Position numbers and translations under genes: made by a program. This document shows positions 1,734 to 56,663 of a stretch of 64,000 bases of DNA, in pieces (the stretch's first letter is position 1; the number at the start of each line of letters is the position of its first letter). The DNA lies in the IMG/VR virus record IMGVR_UViG_3300028177_000001, positions 186,001 to 250,000 of that record; one strand, written 5' to 3'. The DNA is from a virus. The notes below the pieces were generated by a model. The model made no database searches and was not told the DNA's origin. It saw only the letters and a program-made list of their open reading frames with translations.

Positions 1734-2921
1734 TCAGTCGGGCTCGACCAGAGCGAACTCGAGGTCCTGGACTCCGGTCTCGTTGTCGGGCAGGCCAGCG
1801 CGGATGACTTCCACCTCACGGCCCTTGTGGGGTCCGGCCTTCAGGGTGGCGCGGTCGCCGACCTTAAAGACCTGGTGCTTGGAGGACGGGCCTCCGCCAC
1901 CCTCGCCTTCCTGCTCGGGCTCGGCACTCCCGCCACCCTCGCCTTCGTCTTCGCCCTCTCCGGGCTCGCTGCCCTCGTCGCCCTCGTCACCCTCGTCACC
2001 CTTGTTGGGCTTCGGCTCAGGCTTCGGCTTCGGGGGCTCCACTGCGGTCTCGGCGATGAGAGCGACCACTTCCATGGCCAGCCACATGCCGGACAGGTCC
2101 GGCTCAGCCGGAAGGTCGATGGCGCGGTCCATCAAGGGGCGAAGCGGTCCCCTCTCCACGAAGAGGTAGCCAGCGGGGTTCGCCTCCTTGTAGCCCTTCA
2201 GGGCGGTCACCTGCAACGGGGTGGTGTAGCCCAGGCCCAGATCCCGGAAGACTCCCATCACCACGCTCATCGCCCCCTGGGGAGCGGGCTTGCCGCCCTT
2301 GCCCGCCTTGAGGCGTCCCTCCTCTTCCTGCTCGAGAATGAGGTCCTGGAGGCACTCCATCTTGTTCAGAGCACCAGGGAAGTCCTCGCAGCCCCGACGC
2401 TCGATGCGCACGTCGTCGATGAGGTTGTCCCAGTGGAGGAGCATTCCCGTCAAGGGGGCCCAGCCTCGGTGACCGTTCGCCGGGTCGTAGGGGATCGCGG
2501 TCCAGTGGTCCAGGACCTTCGGCCACACCTCGTTGATGTGGATCCGAGTCCGACGGCTGTACTTGGTGTGCCAGGCTTCGTGGTAGCCACCCCCGACCAG
2601 GGCATAGGCCAGCTTCTTGTACAGGTCGTCCGGAGTACTGGCGATGGTGATGCCAGGGTTGTGGACCACGCTGGCGTTTGCCTTCGCTACCCAGCCCTCC
2701 ACATCGCGCCGACCGGGCGTCAGGGAAGGGTTCAGCTTTGCCCACTCGCACATCGCCGCCATGAAGGCTCGAGCCGTCCAGCCGTCTCGGTTCAAGAACC
2801 GAGCCCCGCGACTCACGACCGACCGCACGTTTGGACCGAGGACCGCGTCCACGGTTGCCTGGTGCGTGTTCCGCCAGCGCTGTCCCTTGAAGGCTGCCGG
2901 TCCCTTGCTTGTGCGCTTCAC
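1734..2921 (-). CDS. CobT/DUF2201-like metallopeptidase-fold protein
   Basis: GTG at 2921 follows a strong GGAGGAG. The 395-aa product has a helical N-terminal part with an HExxH-type motif, HEAWHTKYS, near residue 114; this is typical of the metallopeptidase-like half of CobT and DUF2201 proteins. A Pro/Lys then Glu/Gly-rich linker (about 300-345) and a small C-terminal KOW-like segment follow. In relatives this half is usually fused to a vWA domain. Here the vWA is a separate gene downstream, so the unit appears split. Whether it cleaves protein is unknown; the motif is intact. Confidence 0.65.
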   Translation of the reverse strand: MKRTSKGPAAFKGQRWRNTHQATVDAVLGPNVRSVVSRGARFLNRDGWTARAFMAAMCEWAKLNPSLTPGRRDVEGWVAKANASVVHNPGITIASTPDDLYKKLAYALVGGGYHEAWHTKYSRRTRIHINEVWPKVLDHWTAIPYDPANGHRGWAPLTGMLLHWDNLIDDVRIERRGCEDFPGALNKMECLQDLILEQEEEGRLKAGKGGKPAPQGAMSVVMGVFRDLGLGYTTPLQVTALKGYKEANPAGYLFVERGPLRPLMDRAIDLPAEPDLSGMWLAMEVVALIAETAVEPPKPKPEPKPNKGDEGDEGDEGSEPGEGEDEGEGGGSAEPEQEGEGGGGPSSKHQVFKVGDRATLKAGPHKGREVEVIRAGLPDNETGVQDLEFALVEPD

Positions 2922-2974: not shown

Positions 2975-3048
2975 TCCCAGAAATAACCCAGAAATAGACG
3001 CTGAAGCTGCTGCCTCCGCGTACGAGGCTGGACTCGGTTCTCGACCCA

Positions 3049-3289
3049 GCCTGGCCAGTTCCAGTAAGGTTTTGCCCCTGCAGAGTACTGGCTCGTCCTC
3101 CCCACTCCGACCCCCTGCCGAGAGGGCGCGAAACGCCTCCTCGGCCCTGGGTTCTCTGGCCAAAGACTGGGGGGTCGGAGTGGCTGGAGACGAGGCCCCT
3201 CCTCCCCGTAGACCAGCAGGAAACCGAACTGGGCTCCTGCCTCCGCCTGGCCAGTTCCAGTTGGGTCTTGCCCCTGCAGAGTACTGGCT
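3049..3289. repeat. Two 45-bp direct repeats in a 368-bp gene-free stretch
   Basis: The interval 2922-3289 holds no convincing gene. Copies at 3049-3093 and 3245-3289 match at 42 of 45 positions, and each carries GGCCAGTTCCAG near one end and AGTACTGGCT at the other, giving a weak internal dyad. The second copy ends at the stop codon of the AAA gene. The repeats could be a processing, binding or recombination site; nothing decides which. Confidence 0.7.
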
Positions 3290-4525
3290 TCAGTCGTCGC
3301 CGAGGGCCCCGCCCTTCAGGTGGGGGTCGATCAGCCGGTTCGCCGTCAGACGGGACTCAGAGTCCAGACCTTCGAGCCACGCTCGCATCCCGTGCTTCAA
3401 GAGGTTGTCCGGCGTCGTGGCCGAGTAGTGGAGCACGTCCTCGCACTCGTCCAGGATAGCGCAGAGGCTACGGTGGGTGAACTCGGCGTACAGGTCCTCG
3501 TTGTCGATGGCCTTGCGCAGCGAAGCCGTCGCGTGACCCAGCTGACCCAGCTTCTTCTCGCTGGAGTCGCTGAAGATGCTCGGGTCCGCTGCGGCCACCC
3601 CTGGGTACTTCGCCCGAAGGATCTTCCCCTCGTCGACCCAGTCCATGTACTTCGCTTCCATCTTCCGTCCCAGACGGTCCATGATGGATGCGTCGATCGG
3701 GTTCGCCGAACCCATGCGACCCCGTGCGTCCCCAGTGCCGCAGCTGTTCGCCGTGCAGATGAACTGCGTCCCCGGGAAGAGAGGAACCATGCCTCCGTCC
3801 GGACCCAGGATGCGTCCCGAGATCGAATCGGTCAGGATGCGGAACCACTCGGCCTGAGCCTCGTCCGCTCGGTCCACGTCGCTCAGCAACACCAGCGCCG
3901 CTCGTGCGACCCCGTCCCGACCCTCGACGCCGTTCACCAGCGCGTTCCAGAGGTGGCCGAACTCCCAGCTCGTCCCCTCCTTGTCGATAGCCCGCGTGTA
4001 GAACCACGGCGACAAGTCCGTACCCGGTCGGAAGGTGACCATCACCACCGGCTTCCGTGTGTACGCGCTGTATGCGTGGACGATAGCGTCCTTGCCTGTC
4101 CCCGGCATGCCCCAGATGAAGGCGTTCCGACCCCGAGCCATCGCCATGATCGCCCGGCTGAACACCCCGCGTGCCGCCCCCTGTGTGGGGAACTGGTAGT
4201 TCGAAGGCAACGGCAAACACTCCGACTCCGGCACCGCCCCGTCCACCGGGATCTGGATGCCCATCAGGTTTGCCGTCAAGCCCGTCGGCGCGGGCGCTCC
4301 CCGACGTACCGCTGCCGTCTTGAGCATCTTGAGTGCCTCGTCCGAAACCGTCGCGGCTCCAGCGTGGGCGCTCAGGTAGTCTGCCACCGTCAAACCGTGG
4401 GCCTCCATCAAGTGGCTCACCAACGCGTGACTCTTGTAGCCGCACTCAGCACACTCGACCCGAGCGTCTGTCACACTCAAGGTCTGCGTAGCAGCGGGGG
4501 CGGCACTCGTAGAAGCGGTCGTCAT
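3290..4525 (-). CDS. MoxR/CobS-type AAA+ ATPase with N-terminal zinc finger
   Basis: The 411-aa product starts at ATG 4525 with GGAGA upstream. Residues about 24-60 hold a CxxC...HxxxxH zinc-finger-like element. The AAA module has Walker A GMPGTGKD near residue 141, Walker B ending LLSDVDRAD, and sensor-1 CTANS. This resembles CobS and MoxR ATPases, which use ATP to remodel targets together with vWA partners. The partner-like vWA and metallopeptidase-like genes follow directly. Phages are known to carry CobS-like genes without a cobalamin pathway, so I do not infer cobalt insertion. Confidence 0.82.
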   Translation of the reverse strand: MTTASTSAAPAATQTLSVTDARVECAECGYKSHALVSHLMEAHGLTVADYLSAHAGAATVSDEALKMLKTAAVRRGAPAPTGLTANLMGIQIPVDGAVPESECLPLPSNYQFPTQGAARGVFSRAIMAMARGRNAFIWGMPGTGKDAIVHAYSAYTRKPVVMVTFRPGTDLSPWFYTRAIDKEGTSWEFGHLWNALVNGVEGRDGVARAALVLLSDVDRADEAQAEWFRILTDSISGRILGPDGGMVPLFPGTQFICTANSCGTGDARGRMGSANPIDASIMDRLGRKMEAKYMDWVDEGKILRAKYPGVAAADPSIFSDSSEKKLGQLGHATASLRKAIDNEDLYAEFTHRSLCAILDECEDVLHYSATTPDNLLKHGMRAWLEGLDSESRLTANRLIDPHLKGGALGDD

Positions 4526-4576
4526 GGTCGTGTTCTCCGTGGCGGCGATGCGCGCTCAAGGTTCCCTTCGAGTGCC

Positions 4577-4604
4577 TTACGTCCACTCCCCACCCAGGGA
4601 ACCC
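4577..4604 (-). promoter_or_regulatory. Two-box promoter for the AAA gene
   Basis: Minus strand GGGTTCCC (4604-4597), 13 nt, GACGTAA (4583-4577), 52 nt before the ATG. This is the longest leader among the copies. Confidence 0.75.
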
Positions 4605-5104
4605 TATCAAAGTACGAATACCTCCCGTTCACTGTCCTGCCTCCCGTTCACTCTGCGACCCCGAACCCTCTCGTACAACCCCGCTCTCAATCACTCCGAC
4701 CCTTCCTGCGACCCCGCCGCAATCCCGATTTATTCTGCCCGTTTAGAGACACTGGGCGTAGACGTGGGGAGACACTGGGCGTAGACGTGGGGAGACACTG
4801 GGCGTAGACGTGGGAGAAACGGGCTGGTGGGTAGGTAGACGTGGGAGAAACGGGCTGGTGGGTAGGTAGACGTGGGTGGAGGACACTGGGCGTAGACGTG
4901 GGTGGAGGACACTGGGCGTAGACGTGGGTGGAGGACACTGACGTGGGGGAAGTGGAGTGGGGAGTGTTCGTAGACGTGGGGGAAGTGGACGTGGGGGAAG
5001 TGAAAACGGGGTCACTATACTTGTTCTCGCGGTGGAGCAGAGGCAGCGTGGGTAAGGGTCCACCCGAGGGGACACCGACTGGGTCTCATGTCTTCGAGAC
5101 GGTA
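4605..5104. other. 500-bp gene-free region
   Basis: Reading frames here are short and built from repeats. From 4605 to 4740 the sequence is CT-rich with small direct repeats (CCTCCCGTTCACT twice, CTGCGACCCCG twice). From 4745 to about 5000 it is a tandem array, described separately. From 5010 to 5104 I see no clear signal beyond the tail of the response-regulator transcript. Together with the array this is a candidate origin or control region. Confidence 0.6.
4745..5000. repeat. Iteron-like tandem array, core GTAGACGTGGG
   Basis: The core GTAGACGTGGG occurs at 4758, 4781, 4804, 4835, 4865, 4892, 4918 and 4970, with partial copies near 4941 and 4988. Spacings run from 23 to about 31 bp and then become irregular. 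Units differ in the linker: an ACACTGGGC type and a GAAACGGGCTGG type. Evenly spaced short repeats of this kind often bind a replication initiator or repressor. The array could equally be a recent duplication. Confidence 0.85.
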
Positions 5105-5503
5105 CTACCCAGTTTCTGAAACTCCCATCAAGGGGGGAGTGTAACCGGGGCTGAAGATCCCAGAGAGTGACTGTATCCGTTCTACGAGGGACACATGGTC
5201 CGGTTTCTGGACACAGAGTTCCGGGGGGAGGATGTTTCCGGCTTCTTTGAGGACACTTACAGAGGCCGAGTAGACAACGAAGGGGATTTGTTCCCGACTT
5301 CTTTCGCGGACCTGTTCACAGACGAGTTTCCATTGCCCATGCAGGCCATCACAGACAACGACATCCGGTCGTGAGGCAAGTAGGGGGATAGCTTCCGAGG
5401 CAGAGGCCGCTTGCGAGACTCTGGACACAGTCGGGAGCCGGGAGAGCAGACGGGAGAGTGCTTTGAGGAGCAGGGGTTCATCCTCTACGATTAGGACATG
5501 CAC
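5105..5503 (-). CDS. Single-domain response regulator
   Basis: The 132-aa product is one receiver domain: VEDE acidic pair near residue 8, phospho-acceptor Asp in VVVCDGL near 52, Ser in VYSAS and Lys in VQKPD. The GTG start at 5503 lies 5 nt after the preceding gene's stop. With no output domain it probably works by protein contact or as a phosphate sink for the kinase at 6753-7853. It is the last gene of the signalling cluster. Confidence 0.85.
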   Translation of the reverse strand: MHVLIVEDEPLLLKALSRLLSRLPTVSRVSQAASASEAIPLLASRPDVVVCDGLHGQWKLVCEQVRERSREQIPFVVYSASVSVLKEAGNILPPELCVQKPDHVSLVERIQSLSGIFSPGYTPPLMGVSETG

Positions 5504-5508
5504 GGGAT

Positions 5509-5877
5509 TTACTCATGTTCATAGAGGACGAGGGTTCCCCGTTCACGGAGTTCCGCAAGGAGTCCGAGGTATCTGGGGTATCTGGAGGAGAGGCGACGAG
5601 AGAAAGAGAAGAGGGGGCCGAGACGGGAGACTCGTGCGAGGCCGAGGGGGAGGGGGACATCCTTCCATTGAAGGACGAGGGCGACAGGTTCCTGCCCATC
5701 AGCGAAGGTGGGGCCTTCCTGATTGGTCGGGATCCATCGGACGGTGCCAGACGGTGAGGTGAAGCGTCGGGCTCGCGGGGGTTGACCGAAGCACTCACTG
5801 TTCGTCAGGAGGGCTGGGTCAGACGGGATGAACAGAATGGAGAGAGACAAGTTGGGTAGACCTCTGGGGGAGGTCAT
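5509..5877 (-). CDS. Unknown protein in the two-component cluster, 122 aa
   Basis: ATG 5877 has a purine-rich AGAGGGTAGAGA upstream, and the stop lies just before the next response regulator. Third positions are mostly G or C, as in its neighbours, which favours this frame over overlapping plus-strand ones. A central stretch reads like beta strands (VRWIPTN, VALVLQWKD) and the tail is Arg/Leu-rich. I do not recognise a family. Confidence 0.5.
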   Translation of the reverse strand: MTSPRGLPNLSLSILFIPSDPALLTNSECFGQPPRARRFTSPSGTVRWIPTNQEGPTFADGQEPVALVLQWKDVPLPLGLARVSRLGPLFSFSRRLSSRYPRYLGLLAELRERGTLVLYEHE

Positions 5878-5912
5878 TCTCTACCCTCTCGGAGAGAGGG
5901 TGGGACTCCTTT

Positions 5913-6113
5913 TCAGGAGGGCGACTTGTTCAGTTCCGCTCGGCAGAGTTTCAGGGCAGCTTCCGCTTCTACGGGGGCAGAGGGGGCGGCCAGTTTGGCC
6001 CACTCAGCCAGCGCACGCATTAGCCCATCCGTCTTCAGTTCCAGGGGGGCTCGAGTATCCGGTGCTGAGTCTGACGATGTTCTCTTCAAGGACTTGAGTG
6101 AAGATGCGGACAT
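5913..6113 (-). CDS. Small helical protein, 66 aa
   Basis: ATG 6113 lies 2 nt after the stop of the upstream response regulator, and GGGAGAA within that gene serves as ribosome site. The product has a Ser/Thr-rich N-terminus and an Ala/Glu/Leu-rich helix. It may be a phosphotransfer or adaptor partner given its place, but no conserved His is visible. Confidence 0.5.
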   Translation of the reverse strand: MSASSLKSLKRTSSDSAPDTRAPLELKTDGLMRALAEWAKLAAPSAPVEAEAALKLCRAELNKSPS

Positions 6114-6115
6114 GT

Positions 6116-6760
6116 TCAGAGTTCTCCCAGGCCCCGGAGGGCAGCGACGATGGCACCTACTTCGAGAATGATCCGACCCACAAACCAGAAGATGCCTTTG
6201 ATTTGCGCTTCGATTTCCTTCTTGCCTTTCGGGTCCGATAGGCGGACGAAAAAGTTCTTGAGCAACGGCTTCGGGGAGAGCCCATCCCGAATGTCAGTCA
6301 TCAGAGTCGCGAGTTCAGTCAGGACAGTCATTTGAGCACGGACCAGGCGTCCGGTTTCATCCTCTGTCATGCGTCGCAGGTGACGTGCTTGAGCGACCTT
6401 GACAGCACGGACGAGCGTCGTGGAGTTGGTGACTGACTTGATGAGGAGGTCATCCGCCCCTTCACGGATCATCTCTTCTTCGATGCCATCGTGATACAGC
6501 GCGGTGAGGATGACGATGCTGTTCCCGGTGAGGGCGCGCACTCGTTTGACAGTCGTGCGACCATCATAGGGCGGGACCTTGAGGTCCAGGAGAACGCACA
6601 ACCATTCCTTTCGGAGCAGTTCCTTCGAAGCTTCGGAGTCGATTTCCTCAATGTGGACGAGAGTGATGCCGCTTCCGTCGAGGAGCTCCATGACTTCCTC
6701 TGCGTAAGACGCCTTGTCCTCCACCAGGAGTACAACCCCGGTTGTATTGTTTTCAGACAT
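6116..6760 (-). CDS. Response regulator with C-terminal hydrophobic helix
   Basis: Residues 1-125 form a receiver domain: LVEDK, Asp in VLLDLKVP near 60, Thr in ILTAL and Lys in LLIKS. The remaining 90 residues are helical and end in a hydrophobic segment (GIFWFVGRIILEVGAIVA) that could insert in or lie on the membrane. No DNA-binding domain is visible. It overlaps the kinase gene by 8 nt, so the two are probably coupled. Confidence 0.8.
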   Translation of the reverse strand: MSENNTTGVVLLVEDKASYAEEVMELLDGSGITLVHIEEIDSEASKELLRKEWLCVLLDLKVPPYDGRTTVKRVRALTGNSIVILTALYHDGIEEEMIREGADDLLIKSVTNSTTLVRAVKVAQARHLRRMTEDETGRLVRAQMTVLTELATLMTDIRDGLSPKPLLKNFFVRLSDPKGKKEIEAQIKGIFWFVGRIILEVGAIVAALRGLGEL

Positions 6761-7853
6761 CCGGGGGCCCCGCTTCCATTAGATTGAAGTACACTGTTGA
6801 ACCGCTCTGGCCGTCGCTCTCCATCCAGACGGCACCCCCGTGGCGTTCGAGGATTCGTCGACAGGTCGCCAGCCCCAGTCCGTTGCCGGGGATTTCCGAG
6901 AACCGATGCAGTCGCTTCGACGGTTTGAAGATGTCCTCCAGGTATTCCGGGGGCACGCCCATGCCGTTGTCCTCTACCGAGACGAGGATCACGCCCTCGA
7001 TGTCAGTCCGGCTCGCTTTGACTTCAAGCACGAGAGGGCGGGAGGGGTGTTGGTACTTGAGAGCGTTTTGAATCAGCTGGCGGAAGACCGTCTCGATGGC
7101 GTCCCGGTTCCCTTTGACGATGTAGCCTTGGCAGTTCAGCTTCGCCGTTGTTGCGATTGATGCTCGCACAGCGGGACAGCCTTTGTTCCCGTGCTGGCAG
7201 ACGTTCCCACAGGCCAGGCATTTCGCAGCCGCTTTGAGGGCTGAGTGCAGATGGAAGGAGGCACCGTCGCCGTCCGGGGTCTTCACGTAGGACAGGAACC
7301 CTTCGGTCACGTAGTCCATGCGGTCGATCCCTTGACGCAAGAACCCCAGCCACTTCTCCGCCTTCTCAGGGAAGACGACATCTCCCCGGGAGCAGTGTTT
7401 CTCGAAGTGGGACAAGGCCGCGCCGAGTTCCCTGAGAGGGGAGAGCAGGTCATGACTGGCCGCTGCCGCGAACCACTCCAGGTCCTCTTGCCGGCGGACC
7501 GACTCGGTGATGTTCATGTACACAACGCTCACGTGCTCGTCCCCCGCTGGGGCAACGATCACATTGTAAGTCTTAGGCAACCGTCCAGCATTCGCATACC
7601 GGTAGTGGAAGGACTGGGTTTCCCCAGACTTCGAGACCTCCTGTAGGAGCGGAATGAAGTCCCCCAAGAGCTCAGGCCAGGCTTCACTGGCCGGCTGGTG
7701 GTGCTTCTGGGCCATGTCCAGCCCCCACTGCTCCGAGAACGCCTTGCGGGCTTCCTTATTGAAATCGGCCATACAGGACTTCCCGCTGTCCAGGAGGTCA
7801 ACCTTCCAGACTACGATGGCAATCCCTACAGTCTTGAAGACCTGCTTATGCAT
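6753..7853 (-). CDS. PAS-domain sensor histidine kinase
   Basis: The 366-aa product has no obvious membrane segment. An N-terminal PAS-like region (about 1-115) ends at the typical MNITE. The H-box SHDLLSPL lies near residue 133, the N-box QLIQNALKYQ near 261, and the G boxes DNGMGVP and GNGLGLA near 295-325. Between dimerisation and ATP-binding parts is a cysteine cluster (CLACGNVCQ then C) that could bind metal or sense redox. It lies between two response-regulator genes with overlaps at both ends. Confidence 0.9.
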   Translation of the reverse strand: MHKQVFKTVGIAIVVWKVDLLDSGKSCMADFNKEARKAFSEQWGLDMAQKHHQPASEAWPELLGDFIPLLQEVSKSGETQSFHYRYANAGRLPKTYNVIVAPAGDEHVSVVYMNITESVRRQEDLEWFAAAASHDLLSPLRELGAALSHFEKHCSRGDVVFPEKAEKWLGFLRQGIDRMDYVTEGFLSYVKTPDGDGASFHLHSALKAAAKCLACGNVCQHGNKGCPAVRASIATTAKLNCQGYIVKGNRDAIETVFRQLIQNALKYQHPSRPLVLEVKASRTDIEGVILVSVEDNGMGVPPEYLEDIFKPSKRLHRFSEIPGNGLGLATCRRILERHGGAVWMESDGQSGSTVYFNLMEAGPPDV

Positions 7854-8271
7854 TAGGAGCAGCGGGGAACAGGACGTGTCCGATGCGCTGCAGTATCTCG
7901 GACAACTCGCGGAAACTTACAGGCTTTGAAAGAAAGTCGTCCGGCCCCACCCCGAGTTGTTCGGCCTGCGAACGGTCCGTGGGGTTGTTGCTGGTGGTGA
8001 GTATGATGACGGGAATCTTGCCCGCCCACGAGCTCTGAGACCAGTGGGCGAGAAACTCGAGACCGTCCATCACGGGCATACCCAGGTCCAACAGGATCAG
8101 GTCGGGGATAGGTTCCTGGCCAGAAAGGAGCCATTCCAGAGCCTCCTTCCCATGGGTTGCTCGGAACAGGGACACCCCTACACCTGCCTCCTCGAAACCC
8201 TCCAAGAGGATCTCGTGAAAGACGTCGTCGTCCTCTACGTGCAGAATGATTGATTGCCTTCCGAAAATCAT
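7846..8271 (-). CDS. Single-domain response regulator, Rcp1-like
   Basis: The 141-aa product starts at ATG 8271 with AGGGAG 9 nt upstream. Receiver motifs: HVEDDD, Asp in LILLDLGMP near 63, Thr/Ser in ILTTSN and Lys in LSKP. The layout resembles the short regulators that pair with phytochrome-type kinases. It overlaps the kinase start by 8 nt and leads the signalling operon. Confidence 0.88.
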   Translation of the reverse strand: MIFGRQSIILHVEDDDVFHEILLEGFEEAGVGVSLFRATHGKEALEWLLSGQEPIPDLILLDLGMPVMDGLEFLAHWSQSSWAGKIPVIILTTSNNPTDRSQAEQLGVGPDDFLSKPVSFRELSEILQRIGHVLFPAAPNA

Positions 8272-8311
8272 GACTTCGAGCTCCCTGTGAAGGGGCCCAC
8301 CTATAGCCAGG

Positions 8312-8428
8312 CTACTCGGTAGATCCTTCCGGCATAACAATCCACGTGGCGGGAGGGCACAACGGGTCCAGCTCTTCGATCGCTTGCGCGTGCATCATAA
8401 TGCTCCACAGGAGAATCAGTTCAAGCAC
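8312..8428 (-). CDS. Small hydrophobic-N-terminus peptide, 38 aa
   Basis: GTG 8428 follows the upstream stop by 2 nt with GAGGAAG as ribosome site. The product starts with LELILLWSIMMHA, a possible membrane or signal segment, followed by a short acidic tail with one Cys. Support is its placement and ribosome site only. Confidence 0.4.
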   Translation of the reverse strand: MLELILLWSIMMHAQAIEELDPLCPPATWIVMPEGSTE

Positions 8429-8430
8429 GG

Positions 8431-8712
8431 TCAGTCTTCCTCTTTGGGATAGAGACGGAGTCCCCCGTAATACCCACTGCCCTCCAGAGTGAACTCCCGA
8501 CCCTGATACTCGTACGTGGTCCAGGAATCGTGCTGCCACCCGTTGGTAGTGGTGTCGTCCAGGCTTTCCGCGCCAAGGCCCGTGAGCACCTTGTCTCCGT
8601 CGGAAGGACACCCCACCTTTACACTGACCTTGGTCTTTTCTCCGTTCAGCACGGTCAGGAACTCTTCTTTGATACGGTCCCAGACGGCCAGGACCAGTTC
8701 AGCGTCAGTCAT
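8431..8712 (-). CDS. Unknown protein, 93 aa
   Basis: ATG 8712 overlaps the end of the zinc-ribbon gene upstream. The N-terminal half is helical (ELVLAVWDRIKEEF). The C-terminal half alternates polar and aromatic residues (YEYQGREFTLEGSGYYGG), suggesting a small alpha/beta fold. No family recognised. Confidence 0.6.
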   Translation of the reverse strand: MTDAELVLAVWDRIKEEFLTVLNGEKTKVSVKVGCPSDGDKVLTGLGAESLDDTTTNGWQHDSWTTYEYQGREFTLEGSGYYGGLRLYPKEED

Positions 8713-8995
8713 CCTTCAGCTCCCTGACCAAGCCGCCGATGCCGGTGGTCACAGGCACGTTCTCCTGTTCGCAGTCGGGGTTCTTACAGGCCCAGTCGGT
8801 TCCCCAGAGGTAGGTCATGGGTAGGCGACAGCCGAAGCACGGAGGCGCACGGACAATCGACGCAGCGATGAAGACAGGGTCCGTGTTGATAGCAGCACCC
8901 GCGACGTGTTCTGTGTGCCCCTTAGAGCCGCAGATCGAACACTCGGAGACTTCCACAGCACTCCCCATAGAAAGCACCAGCTTCTTGCTTGCCAT
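8705..8995 (-). CDS. Zinc-ribbon protein, 96 aa
   Basis: ATG 8995 overlaps the previous stop as TGATG, so translation is probably coupled. Cysteine pairs CSIC, CFGC and CKNPDC can form one or two zinc ribbons. Function unknown; many phage proteins of this size are nucleic-acid-binding accessory factors. Confidence 0.6.
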   Translation of the reverse strand: MASKKLVLSMGSAVEVSECSICGSKGHTEHVAGAAINTDPVFIAASIVRAPPCFGCRLPMTYLWGTDWACKNPDCEQENVPVTTGIGGLVRELKDD

Positions 8996-9198
8996 CAGGA
9001 GTCCCACTCGTGTGGGGGCTGCTGCTGTCTGGCCCAGTCGGCCACCACAAGAGCGGGCAACCAGATAGGCAAAGAGAGGACCCCGCCCAGGATAGCTCCG
9101 CCGACGATAGCTCCGCCACCCGCGACGGAACCTACCACTCCGGCCAGGCGGAAGACGCGCATGAGGGCGCGACGCTTGAGACTCGGACGCTTGGTCAT
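8995..9198 (-). CDS. Small membrane protein with glycine-rich helix, 67 aa
   Basis: A basic N-terminus (TKRPSLKRRALMRVFR) precedes a Gly/Ala/Val membrane segment and a second hydrophobic stretch ending in Trp. The shape could fit a holin-like or inner-membrane effector, but no lysis genes are adjacent. It overlaps its upstream neighbour by ATGA. Confidence 0.55.
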   Translation of the reverse strand: MTKRPSLKRRALMRVFRLAGVVGSVAGGGAIVGGAILGGVLSLPIWLPALVVADWARQQQPPHEWDS

Positions 9199-10001
9199 GT
9201 GCGCTCCTTGAGCAAGGAGTCGTGCTCCATGTTGTCGTAGCAGCTACCTCGGACGTGGTTCAGATAAGTCGCGAGCGCAGCCACCCCGTGCTCTGCGAGG
9301 GCTTCCGCCTCCTCCTCACCGATGATTTCCGGGGCACCGTGTAGCCGGCAGTATGTGCAAGGTGACTGGCGGACCTCGAGTTCATTCGGGGGAAGCCACC
9401 GGTGGATGCTCTCGATCATGAAGTGTTCGCCTTCCGGGTGCACGTCGACCACCTTGGTGAATCCGGGACGCGGAGTCCTCTTGATAGCCCCCCAGGCGTC
9501 CGCTGTGGGTCGGGCGAGGTCCCCGACCTTGATGTCGAGAATGAAGGGGGACGTCCCCTTGGCCGCTTCCGCAATCGCCTCCTTCAGGAAGGGTCCAGCG
9601 ACCTTCTCTACGAGCTTGCCCACACGCCGCTTGATCGCAGCGGTTGCCTCGGTCTCCAGGTCGCCGATGTCCCACATGTAGTGAACGTCTTCCAGCTGGT
9701 ACCTCAGAACGCCGTCTATGGTCTGGGTCCCCTTCACCTTGAAGTAGGGGCCGTGGGGTCGCTGCGGGAAGTTCGCCTCCCATTTGCTCTTGATCGGTCG
9801 TACACGGGCTCCCACGGCCAGGGAGTCCGGACTGGTCGGCTGAGCCTCCGAAACTACTCGCAGCTCAGGGTGCTCTTCTGCGAGCCACGTGACCACGTCC
9901 TTCAGTCCGGCAGGCTGGTATCCCGGGTCTCCATCGCTGTTCTGGCGAGAGACGCGCTCTGCGTGGTTACGCGGAGGGATCCAGACAAAGAGTTCAGACA
10001 T
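9195..10001 (-). CDS. Unknown protein, 268 aa
   Basis: The product starts at ATG 10001, inside the end of the preceding gene. It has mixed alpha/beta character, with a motif VGARVRPIK near residue 63 and a Cys pair CTYC near 220. I do not recognise it. It sits in a coupled chain of four small genes. Confidence 0.6.
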   Translation of the reverse strand: MSELFVWIPPRNHAERVSRQNSDGDPGYQPAGLKDVVTWLAEEHPELRVVSEAQPTSPDSLAVGARVRPIKSKWEANFPQRPHGPYFKVKGTQTIDGVLRYQLEDVHYMWDIGDLETEATAAIKRRVGKLVEKVAGPFLKEAIAEAAKGTSPFILDIKVGDLARPTADAWGAIKRTPRPGFTKVVDVHPEGEHFMIESIHRWLPPNELEVRQSPCTYCRLHGAPEIIGEEEAEALAEHGVAALATYLNHVRGSCYDNMEHDSLLKERT

Positions 10002-10263
10002 AGATGACCTCGAGGCGGTGTTTCAACTCAAGCTTCAAGGCGAGAGCCTTCAGGTGTTGGGAGTTGCCGGACCTGTGGCCTACGCTGTAGACGCCGGGCA
10101 CGTGGACGGACAACCGCCAGTCGTTGTGCTGGTCAAGCTGCCATCTGTCGTCCCGACCCTGGTAGATGCGGACGGGCTCCCAGCCGGGCTCTTCGGGTTC
10201 GAGAATTCCAGCCAGGAACTGGGCAAACAGCGTTGGTGTCAGCGGGCTCTTGACTCGAAACAT
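9994..10263 (-). CDS. Unknown protein, 89 aa
   Basis: ATG 10263 is preceded by GAGG about 9 nt away, and the last 8 nt overlap the next gene. The product has alternating aromatic and charged residues (WRLSVHVPGVYSVGHRSG). No family recognised. Confidence 0.55.
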   Translation of the reverse strand: MFRVKSPLTPTLFAQFLAGILEPEEPGWEPVRIYQGRDDRWQLDQHNDWRLSVHVPGVYSVGHRSGNSQHLKALALKLELKHRLEVIYV

Positions 10264-10288
10264 TGTGTGTCGTCCTCTGGGGGACATA

Positions 10289-10678
10289 CTACCGTCCCTC
10301 CAGGGCTGCCACCGCTGTCTTCAGCTTCTTCCAGTCCCGGCTGTAGCCGAGCACGCAAGCTCCTACAACAGCCAGGACGTGCTTGCATGTCCCGGCCCGC
10401 CCGTGGTCGTAGCAGTCGCACTTGACGATTGCTCGTCCGCCCCCCTTGAGGGTAATGGACACTGGGTAGGCTTGAGTGCCCTGCACCAGAGCAGTGATGC
10501 TGTCCGGCTCGTCGGCTCGGACCCACTTGACCGCCCCGGACTCAAGCAAGGCTCGCGCCTTCTGGCGCCGAGCAGCTTCGGAACCCTCCACCAGCAAACG
10601 GAGTGCGCGGGAGCGCCCGAGGATCTGCCCTTGGGCTTCCTTCAGGGCGTCGATCAGGTCTTGCATTTCCTGTGTCAA
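10289..10678 (-). CDS. SWIM zinc-finger protein
   Basis: A TTG start at 10678 follows GGAGG by 5 nt; an internal ATG at 10666 is less well placed. The 129-aa product has a helical N-terminal half and then the SWIM signature CDC...CKH near residues 89-102. SWIM fingers bind DNA or protein and occur in Swi2/Snf2 and plant MuDR proteins. Here the finger stands almost alone, so it may be an adaptor. Confidence 0.7.
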   Translation of the reverse strand: MTQEMQDLIDALKEAQGQILGRSRALRLLVEGSEAARRQKARALLESGAVKWVRADEPDSITALVQGTQAYPVSITLKGGGRAIVKCDCYDHGRAGTCKHVLAVVGACVLGYSRDWKKLKTAVAALEGR

Positions 10679-15942: not shown

Positions 15943-17391
15943 TTAGGTCAGCGGGTCGCCGTCCTCAATGTTTTCCTTCAAGTCGTCCAGAAGCTCTCGT
16001 AGCGTCATGGCGACCTTGCCCCGGACGTACCCAGCCGCCACGGCCCGAATCCCTGCGACCTGAACGAACGTCATCGGGTCGAAGGTGAGCTGGGTGCGTG
16101 CATCAAGCACTGCGTCCGTTAGTGAAGCAGCTGCTCGCCCCCGGGAGAGAAACTGCAAGAGGATAGTGGGGTCGATGTACGCGCCCCGCGTAGTAGATGC
16201 GTTGTCGTGGTTGAGAGCACTCTGCGCTTCGGTGAGTGCTTGCCCGATGGTTTCCACCAGAGCCTCTACAACCCTCTCTCGCAGGGCTTCAGTCTCCTCC
16301 TGGGCGAAGCCCCGGATGCGCTCGTACAAGTCCTCCTGCCCATTCCTCAGCGCTGTGAGCACAGTGTCTGTGGCGCGGAGCTTCCGGAAGTCGGTCGGGT
16401 CGATGCCCTTGAAGTTCTTCTTGAAGTAGTTGTGGAGGTCGTTGTATGTGAACCGCTGCCCAGACGCATCGATGAGCACGTACTTGGACTGACCCTCCCG
16501 AGCCTTGTCCACGTAGTCCTGGAGGACGCGGATCAGCAGACCGTCGGACAACCCCGCCGTGTTCAAAGTCCCGGCCTTGCCGATGAACTCAAGCTGAGCG
16601 AAGTTGTCCCTCAAGAACCGAACGTGGGACGGACCCAGGGTCACTGCGCCGAAGGTCTCCACGGCGACGGACTCACCGTCAATCGTCTCTACGACCCCGT
16701 TGCCCACCCGTCCCGGACGGATGCCTGTCTCCATCATGATGGCCGTGGCCAGAGCGGCCAGGCGTACTTGTTCGTTGCTGCTCTTCAGATCCTTCTTCAC
16801 CCGGATCACGATGGCGTTGTACCGCTTCAGGATCAGCTTCATCCGTGCGATCTTCTTCTCCATAGTGAAGCGCTCGTTCACAAAGCGGTCCGTGACACGC
16901 TGGATGTTCCCGTCGACGTCCACGTCAACAACGATGTTGTCCGGAAGGAACGCCCGCAGTTCCAGAGGCAGAGCCTCCTTGAGAGGGGCCTGGGCCACCG
17001 CCATTTGCTGGGCCTGGTAGCCCTTAGTAGCGAGACGATCCAGCTTCTCCAGTCCCTCTCGTGCTGTTAGGTAGCCGAGACCGATGTCCCGAAAGAGCAG
17101 ACTGCCCGCAGCTCGCCAGTTTCGAGCCTTGACGTGCTCTGCGTCTGTTCCCAGATACTGTTCAAGAAACGCAGCTACCTTCGGGTCTGACCTCAGCACG
17201 GTGTTCAGAGCCCGCTTGCGAGCCTTCTGAACCTTGGCCCCCCTGCCTGGGTTCGCCTCCTTCGCTGCAGCTACCTCAGCGGACAGACCCTGAAGCACTC
17301 GGCGAAACGCCCGGCGAGCGTCGGCCTGGTGCTTAGCCAGATCGACGCGGTCGCGTCTGAACTGCTGCGCGGGGGTGGGGAACGAAGGCAT
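15943..17391 (-). CDS. Type IB DNA topoisomerase
   Basis: The 482-aa product has an unusual N-terminal 170-residue helical part, then the type IB catalytic core. Catalytic residues are visible: Arg in ETGIRPGRVGN near 226, Lys in a QSKYVLID strand, Arg in TDFRKLRAT near 335, and Tyr in TTRGAYIDP near 405. The enzyme relaxes supercoils through a 3'-phosphotyrosine link. The core begins later than in the short bacterial or poxvirus enzymes. The start lies 2 nt after the preceding stop. Confidence 0.88.
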   Translation of the reverse strand: MPSFPTPAQQFRRDRVDLAKHQADARRAFRRVLQGLSAEVAAAKEANPGRGAKVQKARKRALNTVLRSDPKVAAFLEQYLGTDAEHVKARNWRAAGSLLFRDIGLGYLTAREGLEKLDRLATKGYQAQQMAVAQAPLKEALPLELRAFLPDNIVVDVDVDGNIQRVTDRFVNERFTMEKKIARMKLILKRYNAIVIRVKKDLKSSNEQVRLAALATAIMMETGIRPGRVGNGVVETIDGESVAVETFGAVTLGPSHVRFLRDNFAQLEFIGKAGTLNTAGLSDGLLIRVLQDYVDKAREGQSKYVLIDASGQRFTYNDLHNYFKKNFKGIDPTDFRKLRATDTVLTALRNGQEDLYERIRGFAQEETEALRERVVEALVETIGQALTEAQSALNHDNASTTRGAYIDPTILLQFLSRGRAAASLTDAVLDARTQLTFDPMTFVQVAGIRAVAAGYVRGKVAMTLRELLDDLKENIEDGDPLT

Positions 17392-46902: not shown

Positions 46903-47286
46903 TCAGTACAACCTGTAGACGACCTGGGAGAGAGCTTGGTCCGCCTCTTCCCCTCGGTCGCTCTGGAGATAGGCGAGGATGGCGGCCACGAGGCGGTTTG
47001 AAGTCCCCTTCCCGGTCCACGGGCCGATTCCCTCAGGGTAGCCTCCCTCCGTCATGGAGGAAATCCTCACGATGTTGGCGACATCGTAGCCCGCCTCTTT
47101 CAGGCGATGTGCCACATGGTTGCCCCTGAGACCCGGCAGGCGGTGGTCCAGCATGACCCCGTCGAAGGACAGGATGTCGTCGATGGGAACCTCGTCCCAG
47201 CGCTCGGCCACCACGTACTCATGACCCTCGGGCCAGTACTTCATGTCCAGCAGCCACGGCTGGTCTTCGATAATCAGAATCTTCAT
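46903..47286 (-). CDS. Response-regulator-like receiver protein
   Basis: The 127-aa product has IIEDQ, Asp in GVMLDHRLPG near 45, Ser in VRISSM and Lys in WTGKGTS. The receiver is slightly short and divergent. No kinase is adjacent; the nearest is at 6753. ATG 47286 is 24 nt after a two-box promoter. Confidence 0.72.
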   Translation of the reverse strand: MKILIIEDQPWLLDMKYWPEGHEYVVAERWDEVPIDDILSFDGVMLDHRLPGLRGNHVAHRLKEAGYDVANIVRISSMTEGGYPEGIGPWTGKGTSNRLVAAILAYLQSDRGEEADQALSQVVYRLY

Positions 47287-54710: not shown

Positions 54711-56663
54711 TCAGGCTGCCCAGGCGGGTCGTTCGAGGAGCGGAGTCCGAAGAATCTGCTCAACGAGGGACACTCGCCGAACGACCCGACGCTGAGCCGG
54801 AGCTTCACCCACGGGGGTCGCCGCGATCAGGTTCGCCAGAACCTGGCTGACTGCGTAGGGGTCCTCGAAGATGTCCTCGAAGTCCTGCGCAGTCCGCGAG
54901 GCGCAGGGGATCTGGAGTCGAGCCGCCGCGTCCGTGACCGTCCGACCCAGGTTCCCGTTGCCCCACCGCCCGTTGCCGGTGAACTGACCCCAGATGAACG
55001 ACACGGGCCGAAGCCCGGAGGCCTCGATCGCAGTCGCCAGCTGGAGGCCGGACTCACCGCACCCGTCGCCGATGAAGATGAAGAGGCTGTCCTCGTCTTC
55101 CTGCGGCTTGTGGTGCTGGATCGCCCGGACGCCCTCACCGTAGCGGGTGCCCCCGGAAGCCGTGTGCTTGGAGAGCGCGTGCTCCACGGCGGCAGACCGT
55201 GCGGCCTGGATCTTGATCTCGGTCCCCATGGTGTTGAAGATCGAGACGTGGGTCCGGTCGAGAGGGAAGCCTCCGACGAACTTGCTCAGGCAACGCTTCG
55301 CCGCCTCGATAGCACCGTCCATGGAGCCGGACTTGTCGATGATGAAGTACACCCGGAGGTTCCGAGTGACCTTCTCGATCGCCTTCGCCGTTGCCACGTC
55401 AGCCGCTTCCTCGAGGATGTCCCGCATCGCGTCCGTCTTCACGTTCCGCATGGTGTGCCGCGACCGCTGGTCCGTCGCGTTCTTCACACCACGAGCCAGC
55501 TTCTGCGCCACGGAGGGGATAGCCCCCACACCCAGGTCCTCGATGGTAGGCACCAGCGTCAGGATCTGCTTGTCGGAGACGCACCCCGCCTCTACAGCTG
55601 CCACGAAGATGGCGGGGGTGAGACCCACGCCCTCCGGCAGCTGTCCGACGAGGTTCAGCCAGGAGGGCTGCTCGGCCACGATGCGCTCGCAGACCTCCCC
55701 TTCGGTCAGACCCTTCCAGGTCACCTTCTCCTCGAGCTCCATGTCGAGCGCGATGGTCCGGTGACCGTCCTTGGCCTGAGACTGCTTCCACCGCAGAGCC
55801 TTGAAGAACTCCGGGCTCTGCGCCTTGTAGCGGACCGACCGAGCCAGCTGCTCCACCGTGTTGCCCCAGCCTGCCTTCACGAGACCGGCCAGCATGCGAG
55901 GGTTGTCCTCCCGGTAGCGGAGCCACTTCTGGACCGCCTTCTTGTACCGGCGGATCTGCGGGTTCCGAGCGCTCTGGGAGAAGCCCAGCTCACGGTTGAT
56001 GGCGTGGATCTCGGGGAGACGGAGGATCTGCCCGATCAGGAGGACCTGCTTGGGCGAGAGGTCCGACCCCTTCTGCCGGTGCAGGACCATGGCCTCGCCG
56101 ACCGCCCGGAAGTCGTCGTCGTAGAACAACACCTGGCCGTTCTCGGTGACGGGCTCCCCAGCGTGCTTCTGCGTCAGCATGAAGGCTGCGAGGATGGTCT
56201 GGAGGTCGCGCCGGTCCTGAGTGAAGGCCCAGCTGGCCCAGTGGGCCGAGAAGTCGGCGTCGGTCTTGTAGACCTCGGCGACCTGGCGGTACAGGTACTC
56301 AGCCACCTCGACGTAGATGCCGGGCTCGCGCCACTCGGCGACGACCGTGCCCCGTGCGTCCAGGACACGCTTGCCGTCCGGCGCCAGGGTTCCGAGAAGA
56401 ACCTCGTTGGTCGTGGTCTTCTGCTTCTTGCCGACGCCGGTCTTGGTCAGGTCGCAACGGAAGACGTGCTTGGAGCCGTCCTCCTGCTTTCGCCAGGTGG
56501 CCTGGGACCACCGGACACCGATGTTGGTGCGAGCGTCCTTGACGACGATGCCGGGACGGTTGTGGACCAGGTGGTCCGTGAGACCAGACACCGCCTGGAT
56601 GACGCGCTCAGCCGGGCCGAGGCCCTCGAGACGCTGGGGGTCGATCTGAACTACTTCGGGCAT
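54711..56663 (-). CDS. rsr: Ro60/Rsr-like TROVE-vWA RNA-binding protein
   Basis: ATG 56663 follows AAGGAGC. The 650-aa product has a long helical-repeat region; a segment near 265-300 (TVEQLARSVRYKAQSPEFF, then ALRWKQ) has TROVE-type character. A C-terminal vWA domain runs from about 435 with an intact MIDAS: DKSGS, GGTRYGEG and GDGC. Ro60 proteins form a ring that holds misfolded RNA and Y RNA and works with exonucleases. The adjacent Y-like RNA strengthens the call. A vWA protein with unrelated HEAT-like repeats is the alternative. Confidence 0.72.
   Translation of the reverse strand: MPEVVQIDPQRLEGLGPAERVIQAVSGLTDHLVHNRPGIVVKDARTNIGVRWSQATWRKQEDGSKHVFRCDLTKTGVGKKQKTTTNEVLLGTLAPDGKRVLDARGTVVAEWREPGIYVEVAEYLYRQVAEVYKTDADFSAHWASWAFTQDRRDLQTILAAFMLTQKHAGEPVTENGQVLFYDDDFRAVGEAMVLHRQKGSDLSPKQVLLIGQILRLPEIHAINRELGFSQSARNPQIRRYKKAVQKWLRYREDNPRMLAGLVKAGWGNTVEQLARSVRYKAQSPEFFKALRWKQSQAKDGHRTIALDMELEEKVTWKGLTEGEVCERIVAEQPSWLNLVGQLPEGVGLTPAIFVAAVEAGCVSDKQILTLVPTIEDLGVGAIPSVAQKLARGVKNATDQRSRHTMRNVKTDAMRDILEEAADVATAKAIEKVTRNLRVYFIIDKSGSMDGAIEAAKRCLSKFVGGFPLDRTHVSIFNTMGTEIKIQAARSAAVEHALSKHTASGGTRYGEGVRAIQHHKPQEDEDSLFIFIGDGCGESGLQLATAIEASGLRPVSFIWGQFTGNGRWGNGNLGRTVTDAAARLQIPCASRTAQDFEDIFEDPYAVSQVLANLIAATPVGEAPAQRRVVRRVSLVEQILRTPLLERPAWAA

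Follow-up and report, generated by a model that had tools for sequence, protein, structure and literature searches.

A two-component cluster in a jumbo phage, with a soluble histidine kinase and a receiver bearing a probable membrane helix

In the DrBphP/DrRR and Cph1/Rcp1 two-component systems, a histidine kinase with an ASHDLxxPLR-type H-box and a PAS-GAF-PHY photosensor is encoded beside a stand-alone receiver partner. Bacterial single-domain regulators serve as diffusible partners or phosphate sinks, and phages are usually thought to read the state of the host indirectly, via host regulators. In Myxococcus, the chromosomally encoded single-domain regulator EpsW acts on a membrane enzyme, the glycosyl transferase EpsZ, by touching it directly (PMC12802240). 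The two-component proteins phoR and phoB are known from phages as single host-type genes, proposed to be auxiliary metabolic genes that influence Pho regulation in the host (PMC10987575, PMC8228385). Jumbo phages also carry cREC, a receiver-like domain (PMC7824862, PMC9503650) that is linked to NAD/ADP-ribose and RNA repair and is reported never to occur alongside a histidine kinase (PMC7824862). Among the open-access papers searched, none was found that describes a complete phage operon with several receivers. Here we describe a cluster of one histidine kinase and three receivers (RR1, RR2 and RR3) in a 64,000-nucleotide (nt) stretch of viral DNA, hereafter the window, which covers bases 186001-250000 of the 288,255-bp IMG/VR virus record IMGVR_UViG_3300028177_000001. 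The cluster lies at 191-194 kb of the record; it is almost certainly a genuine phage two-component system and, judging from its sequence, very probably a functional one.

The kinase and its receivers

The cluster, which a first-pass annotation had placed at 5105-8271 of the window, is made up of minus-strand open reading frames (ORFs) found at those positions and transcribed in the order RR1, kinase, RR2, ORF66, ORF122 and RR3 (Table 1). The coupling by overlaps described there holds for the RR1/kinase and kinase/RR2 junctions, which overlap by 8 nt each, but the remaining genes are 2, 35 and 5 nt apart. ORF66 and ORF122, listed as two unknown small genes, indeed have no family matches; their codon usage gives no signal above the other frames and their coding status is unproven. 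The complete kinase boxes and the receiver active-site residues are those that define a two-component system by sequence, whereas the DNA-binding output of a classical transcriptional system is absent from the regulators.

Besides the ATPase domain, Pfam detects HisKA weakly in the kinase (E 0.28), and its PDB matches are histidine kinases, from 7e-23. All the catalytic boxes attributed to it are present: the H-box SHDLLSPLR (H134), the N-box NALKY (N263), and the G1, F and G2 boxes DNGMG at 295, IFKPS at 308 and GNGLGL at 323. The protein has no transmembrane (TM) segment, its strongest hydropathy being 1.29. Its description as a PAS kinase is upheld by alignment and by kinases labelled 'PAS domain S-box' that it matches over the full length, but not by a Pfam PAS call. 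These kinases, from haloarchaea and Deinococcus, are about 26-33% identical to it, and the PAS strand order in its structural model is plausible in a low-confidence prediction. Pfam finds no GAF or PHY match, and only about 117 residues lie ahead of the DHp domain. The linker between the DHp and ATPase domains carries an insert, CLACGNVCQHGNKGC, whose pattern CxxCxxxCx6C is absent in seven of seven aligned relatives. Four cysteines so close together suggest metal or redox binding and make the linker a concrete, mutable candidate sensor site.

The claim of three receivers is borne out by Response_reg matches to each of them, with the acidic pair, the phospho-acceptor aspartate, the Ser/Thr and the lysine kept throughout (Table 1). 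The best PDB match of RR1 is 6xvu, a response regulator of bacteriophytochrome type, and RcpB and Rcp1 are also among its matches. RR2 and RR3 each reach 95% with hhalign against the receiver profile. Profile searches returned no helix-turn-helix or other output-domain family in any receiver, and since no regulator has a DNA-binding domain, output by protein contact, as had been proposed, is a sensible inference.

The accompanying statement that output domains are lacking is right as to DNA binding but overlooks the C-terminus of RR2. Roughly 85 residues follow its receiver domain, predicted as helices at 113-213 in a low-confidence model, and end in a probable membrane helix, GIFWFVGRIILEVGAIVAAL. 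The hydropathy of this helix is the fourth highest among 105 window proteins and falls in the range of the phage coiled-coil/TM proteins P0004 (1.91) and P0006 (2.18), so that RR2 is rather likely to be membrane-anchored. RR2 also has matches in Sinorhizobium and Nonomuraea plasmids. The match on an S. fredii plasmid was considered as a full RR2 homologue and rejected: the receiver is common to both, the C-terminal similarity is weak and the hydrophobic tail is missing.

The window system thus resembles DrBphP/DrRR and Cph1/Rcp1 in the type of its H-box and in having a stand-alone receiver beside the kinase. Unlike them, it has a PAS-like region only in place of the photosensor, has a four-cysteine linker, adds two further receivers and is borne by a phage. 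What is new here is the helical extension of RR2 with its probable membrane helix, together with the CxxCxxxCx6C insert of the kinase.

A fourth receiver had been reported at 46903. The protein at 46903-47286 of the window is receiver-like, with an E-D pair, D47, S76 and K93, but it scores below threshold (Pfam E 0.033; hhalign 86% over 75 columns), lies 38 kb off and is unlinked to the cluster; from its sequence it is doubtful as a receiver, and it is not a clear cREC either. It is very improbable that this protein and RR3 are cREC-type cyclic-phosphate processing domains rather than two-component receivers. The occurrence of cREC in jumbo phages speaks for such a reading, as does the true cREC encoded by relative G014, but neither protein matches PF20274 at E up to 1, and RR3, unlike any reported cREC, sits in a kinase cluster. 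The cREC of G014 (L077:3632-4027) matches PF20274 at 3e-11 with 44 bits.

Table 1. Features of the cluster, with coordinates in the window
Feature	Coordinates	Strand	Description
RR1, stand-alone receiver, 141 aa	7846..8271	-	Rcp1/DrRR-like; E13/D14, D62, T92, K116; Response_reg 8e-20
HK, soluble histidine kinase, 366 aa	6753..7853	-	PAS-like N-terminus, DHp, ATPase domain; HATPase_c 1e-21
Four-cysteine insert CLACGNVCQHGNKGC	7176..7220	-	kinase residues 212-226, DHp-ATPase linker; candidate metal or redox site
RR2, receiver with helical C-terminal extension	6116..6760	-	receiver residues 10-118; D15, D59, T86, K108; Response_reg 3e-9
RR2 probable membrane helix GIFWFVGRIILEVGAIVAAL	6137..6196	-	end of C-terminal extension; mean hydropathy 2.08 over 19 residues
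ORF66	5913..6113	-	small ORF, coding status unproven; no family matches, no codon signal
ORF122	5509..5877	-	small ORF, coding status unproven; no family matches, no codon signal
RR3, divergent stand-alone receiver, 132 aa	5105..5503	-	E7/D8, D52, S79, K100; Response_reg 2e-6, just below curated cut-off

Phage setting and the signalling genes of related phages

The record, a linear one, may be incomplete; it comes with no completeness value and no reported end repeats, which would fit host DNA, the edge of a provirus or a chimeric assembly. Phage genes nevertheless lie on both sides of the cluster: the large subunit of a T4-type topoisomerase II at 24 kb of the record, a terminase at 92-94 kb, an RpoD-like sigma factor at 180.5 kb and, in the window at 35.9-56.7 kb, a block syntenic with Virus Rctr197k. 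Over its full length, the terminase shares 54% identity with its counterpart in a 485-kb uncultured phage; with that of Tunturiibacter phage Tunturi_5 the identity is 28%. The immediate downstream neighbour of the cluster, 580 bp away, is a clade-conserved CobS-like AAA gene (window 3290-4525). We looked for host genes by reading the flanking stretches directly and by searching the remainder of the record by family or protein; no housekeeping gene occurs near the cluster among the genes examined. The phage location that had been claimed therefore stands, and host DNA or contamination is largely refuted and hardly credible.

The CobS-like gene and the gene at window 1734-2921 have 39-42% identical homologues that are adjacent in three related jumbo phages, without the cluster. 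Since these neighbours occur together there, the cluster is an insertion in, or variable cargo of, the phage region. Signalling genes recur across the clade but differ each time. Other receivers are found in 6 of the 25 relatives searched, one of which, present as two records (G015 and G018, which look like one virus), also has hybrid kinases. Stand-alone receivers number two in G005, one in G016 and two in G022, and no kinase was found in those three records. Weak HATPase matches also occur in G008, G017 and G019, and further HATPase matches in G007 and G013, as well as a second one in the present phage, were rejected as type II topoisomerase ATPases (in G007 and G013 by sequence). The hybrid kinases stand in tandem at L067:3190-9068 of G015, with the same pair in G018, and have 1253 and 652 aa and multiple PAS repeats. 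The 240-kb relative G007 encodes a receiver-GGDEF diguanylate cyclase (L076:3233-4231), a possible phage cyclic di-GMP signal.

The statement that full kinases are rare in phages agrees with a search of 50,697 phage records, which gave 44 kinase matches, the only convincing one examined being that of Microcoleus phage My-WqHQDG. Most of the matches lie on small unannotated contigs or in records with host-type genes (for example H27), and these were not counted as phage kinases. The large collections were scanned with peptide patterns, by which distant relatives are missed; exact patterns, which detect close relatives only, gave no close kinase relatives in viral_contigs or genome_contigs. Alignment-based scans with the kinase returned two phage contigs and generic kinases. 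In a tree built with a small sample of cellular kinases, the window kinase groups with the ASHDLxxPLR class with support of 89/97, at no fixed place inside it, and has a very long branch, of 2.4 changes per site. Approximately unbiased tests reject neither its monophyly with the Microcoleus type (p 0.134) nor that with all phage kinases (p 0.10).

A parallel phage operon and the proposed membrane output

Microcoleus phage My-WqHQDG encodes, on one strand and with short overlaps, a kinase (PAS, HisKA and ATPase domains), two successive receivers and a coiled-coil/TM protein, flanked by primase and PIF1 helicase genes. The last protein has 179 residues and one transmembrane-type helix, the coiled-coil label having been read by eye from the sequence. 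The same four genes lie between primase-like and helicase-like ORFs in the near-identical IMG/VR contigs 3300007517_000146 and 3300032431_000082, whose kinases contain a GAF domain and are both 100% identical to the query kinase, which was itself taken from one of these contigs. Between My-WqHQDG and the IMG/VR type, all four genes are open and 48-63% identical, with differences of 0.49-0.59 at third codon positions vs 0.21-0.39. Because the genes stay open and changes concentrate at third positions, this operon is under purifying selection.

In the window as in the Microcoleus type, a phage operon combines a soluble kinase with two receivers and a protein that has a membrane helix. The kinases are soluble PAS kinases of the same class (31% core identity), both operons belong to tailed phages and neither has a DNA-binding domain. 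They differ in gene order, in the GAF domain and separate coiled-coil membrane protein of the Microcoleus type, and in the fused RR2 tail and third receiver of the window. The check for the operon in related phages that had been proposed found it in none of those searched; a similar architecture recurs in the unrelated cyanobacterial virus lineage of My-WqHQDG.

We consider it roughly an even call that the cluster is a phage-encoded two-component system that is expressed during infection and has its output by protein contact at the membrane. The kinase would sense a cytoplasmic property of the infected cell, such as its energy, redox or metal state, via the PAS-like domain, the four-cysteine linker perhaps contributing to sensing. 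After autophosphorylation on H134, it would phosphorylate RR1 on D62 and RR2 on D59, and possibly RR3 on D52. RR1 and RR3 could then be diffusible partners or phosphate sinks, while RR2 would put a phosphorylation switch at the inner membrane and act there by protein contact. Such a contact-based membrane output would be like that of EpsW. The process controlled would most plausibly be a membrane event of late or interrupted infection, such as the timing of lysis, the block of a second phage or an adjustment of envelope transport. Lysis timing and exclusion are guesses from phage biology, and control of lysis or entry specifically is unlikely.

Several observations weigh against this reading. 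The hydrophobic helix of RR2 includes one Arg and one Glu, and with a moment of 0.35 it may be amphipathic. AlphaFold models of RR2 and the kinase have predicted local distance difference test scores of 41 and 38, a confidence too low for use. The C-terminus of RR2 gives no convincing alignment with the Microcoleus-type coiled-coil/TM protein, with 8 invariant columns of 199; P0004 itself matches no other phage of the phage collection. As the RR2 tail has no demonstrable homology to that protein, the logic common to the two operons may be convergence, and the likeness is, by sequence, one of architecture and not of demonstrated descent. The exact operon occurs in 0 of the 25 related phages searched and is therefore accessory. 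Finally, third codon positions in the cluster are poorer in guanine plus cytosine (0.59-0.77) than those in core phage genes (0.81-0.87), and a later acquisition of the cluster is therefore possible.

The last observation would also fit a host operon captured recently and carried as passenger DNA, with no selected role in the phage, as would the lack of the cluster at this site in three relatives sharing the neighbouring gene, and the sporadic and mutually different signalling genes of the clade. Such an origin is nonetheless quite improbable. The catalytic residues are all intact in the four proteins; the kinase is at most about 33% identical to the cellular kinases found in a plasmid collection, and its long branch argues against recent acquisition.

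The main rival is a rewiring of the host, in which the phage kinase and receivers would join host phosphorelays as donors, sinks or decoys, so that a host stress response is silenced or triggered; RR2 and RR3 would lack targets of their own. The ratio of three receivers to a single kinase and the lack of output domains fit a sink or a cross-talk role, the stand-alone receivers of the kinase-less relatives would need host partners, and an action on Pho regulation in the host has been put forward for phage-borne phoR and phoB. However, a complete operon of kinase and receivers whose genes overlap speaks for a circuit that is self-contained, and the membrane-type tail of RR2 would be needless for a sink. 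Altogether, we regard host rewiring as possible but on the unlikely side.

The cluster suggests that some phages use signalling circuitry of their own to sense the state of the cell that they infect. The absence of DNA-binding outputs together with the membrane helices points to fast post-translational control during infection, which has been little studied in phages. With a kinase and receivers in a jumbo phage and a selected operon in a cyanophage lineage, phage-owned signal transduction becomes testable. In the boldest reading, which is improbable, tailed phages of at least two lineages would use a dedicated membrane-tethered circuit that senses the redox or metal state of the infected cell, in the window phage by way of the four cysteines in the kinase linker, and decides on a membrane event such as lysis timing or exclusion; it would do with a phosphorelay what lysis-timing and arbitrium-type decision systems do by other means.

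Other features of the window and the record

No sigma-70-type promoters were found in window 3000-10500, and the count of terminator-like elements around the cluster is not above that of shuffled sequence. An 11-pair hairpin at window 5880-5904, just upstream of the start of ORF122, covers a ribosome-binding-like GAGAGGG stretch and could control translation. Eight exact CCCACGTCTAC units lie on the minus strand at window 4746-5002, in the gap that separates RR3 from the CobS-like gene; they are spaced by 15-52 nt and occur nowhere else in the 288-kb record.

The CobS-like AAA ATPase has a MucR/zinc-finger-like N-terminus and may form an AAA-vWA pair with the vWA protein at window 54711-56663, 50 kb apart. 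The vWA protein retrieves 30 relatives among IMG/VR contigs of up to 497 kb and is a good marker for this jumbo clade. The PHROG terminase match (G000:92403-93992) contains one TAG, possibly through overrun of the match, the open frame itself being 647-677 aa. At window 15943-17391, the phage encodes the catalytic core of a eukaryote-type topoisomerase IB (Pfam 7.7e-8), alongside its T4-type topoisomerase II.

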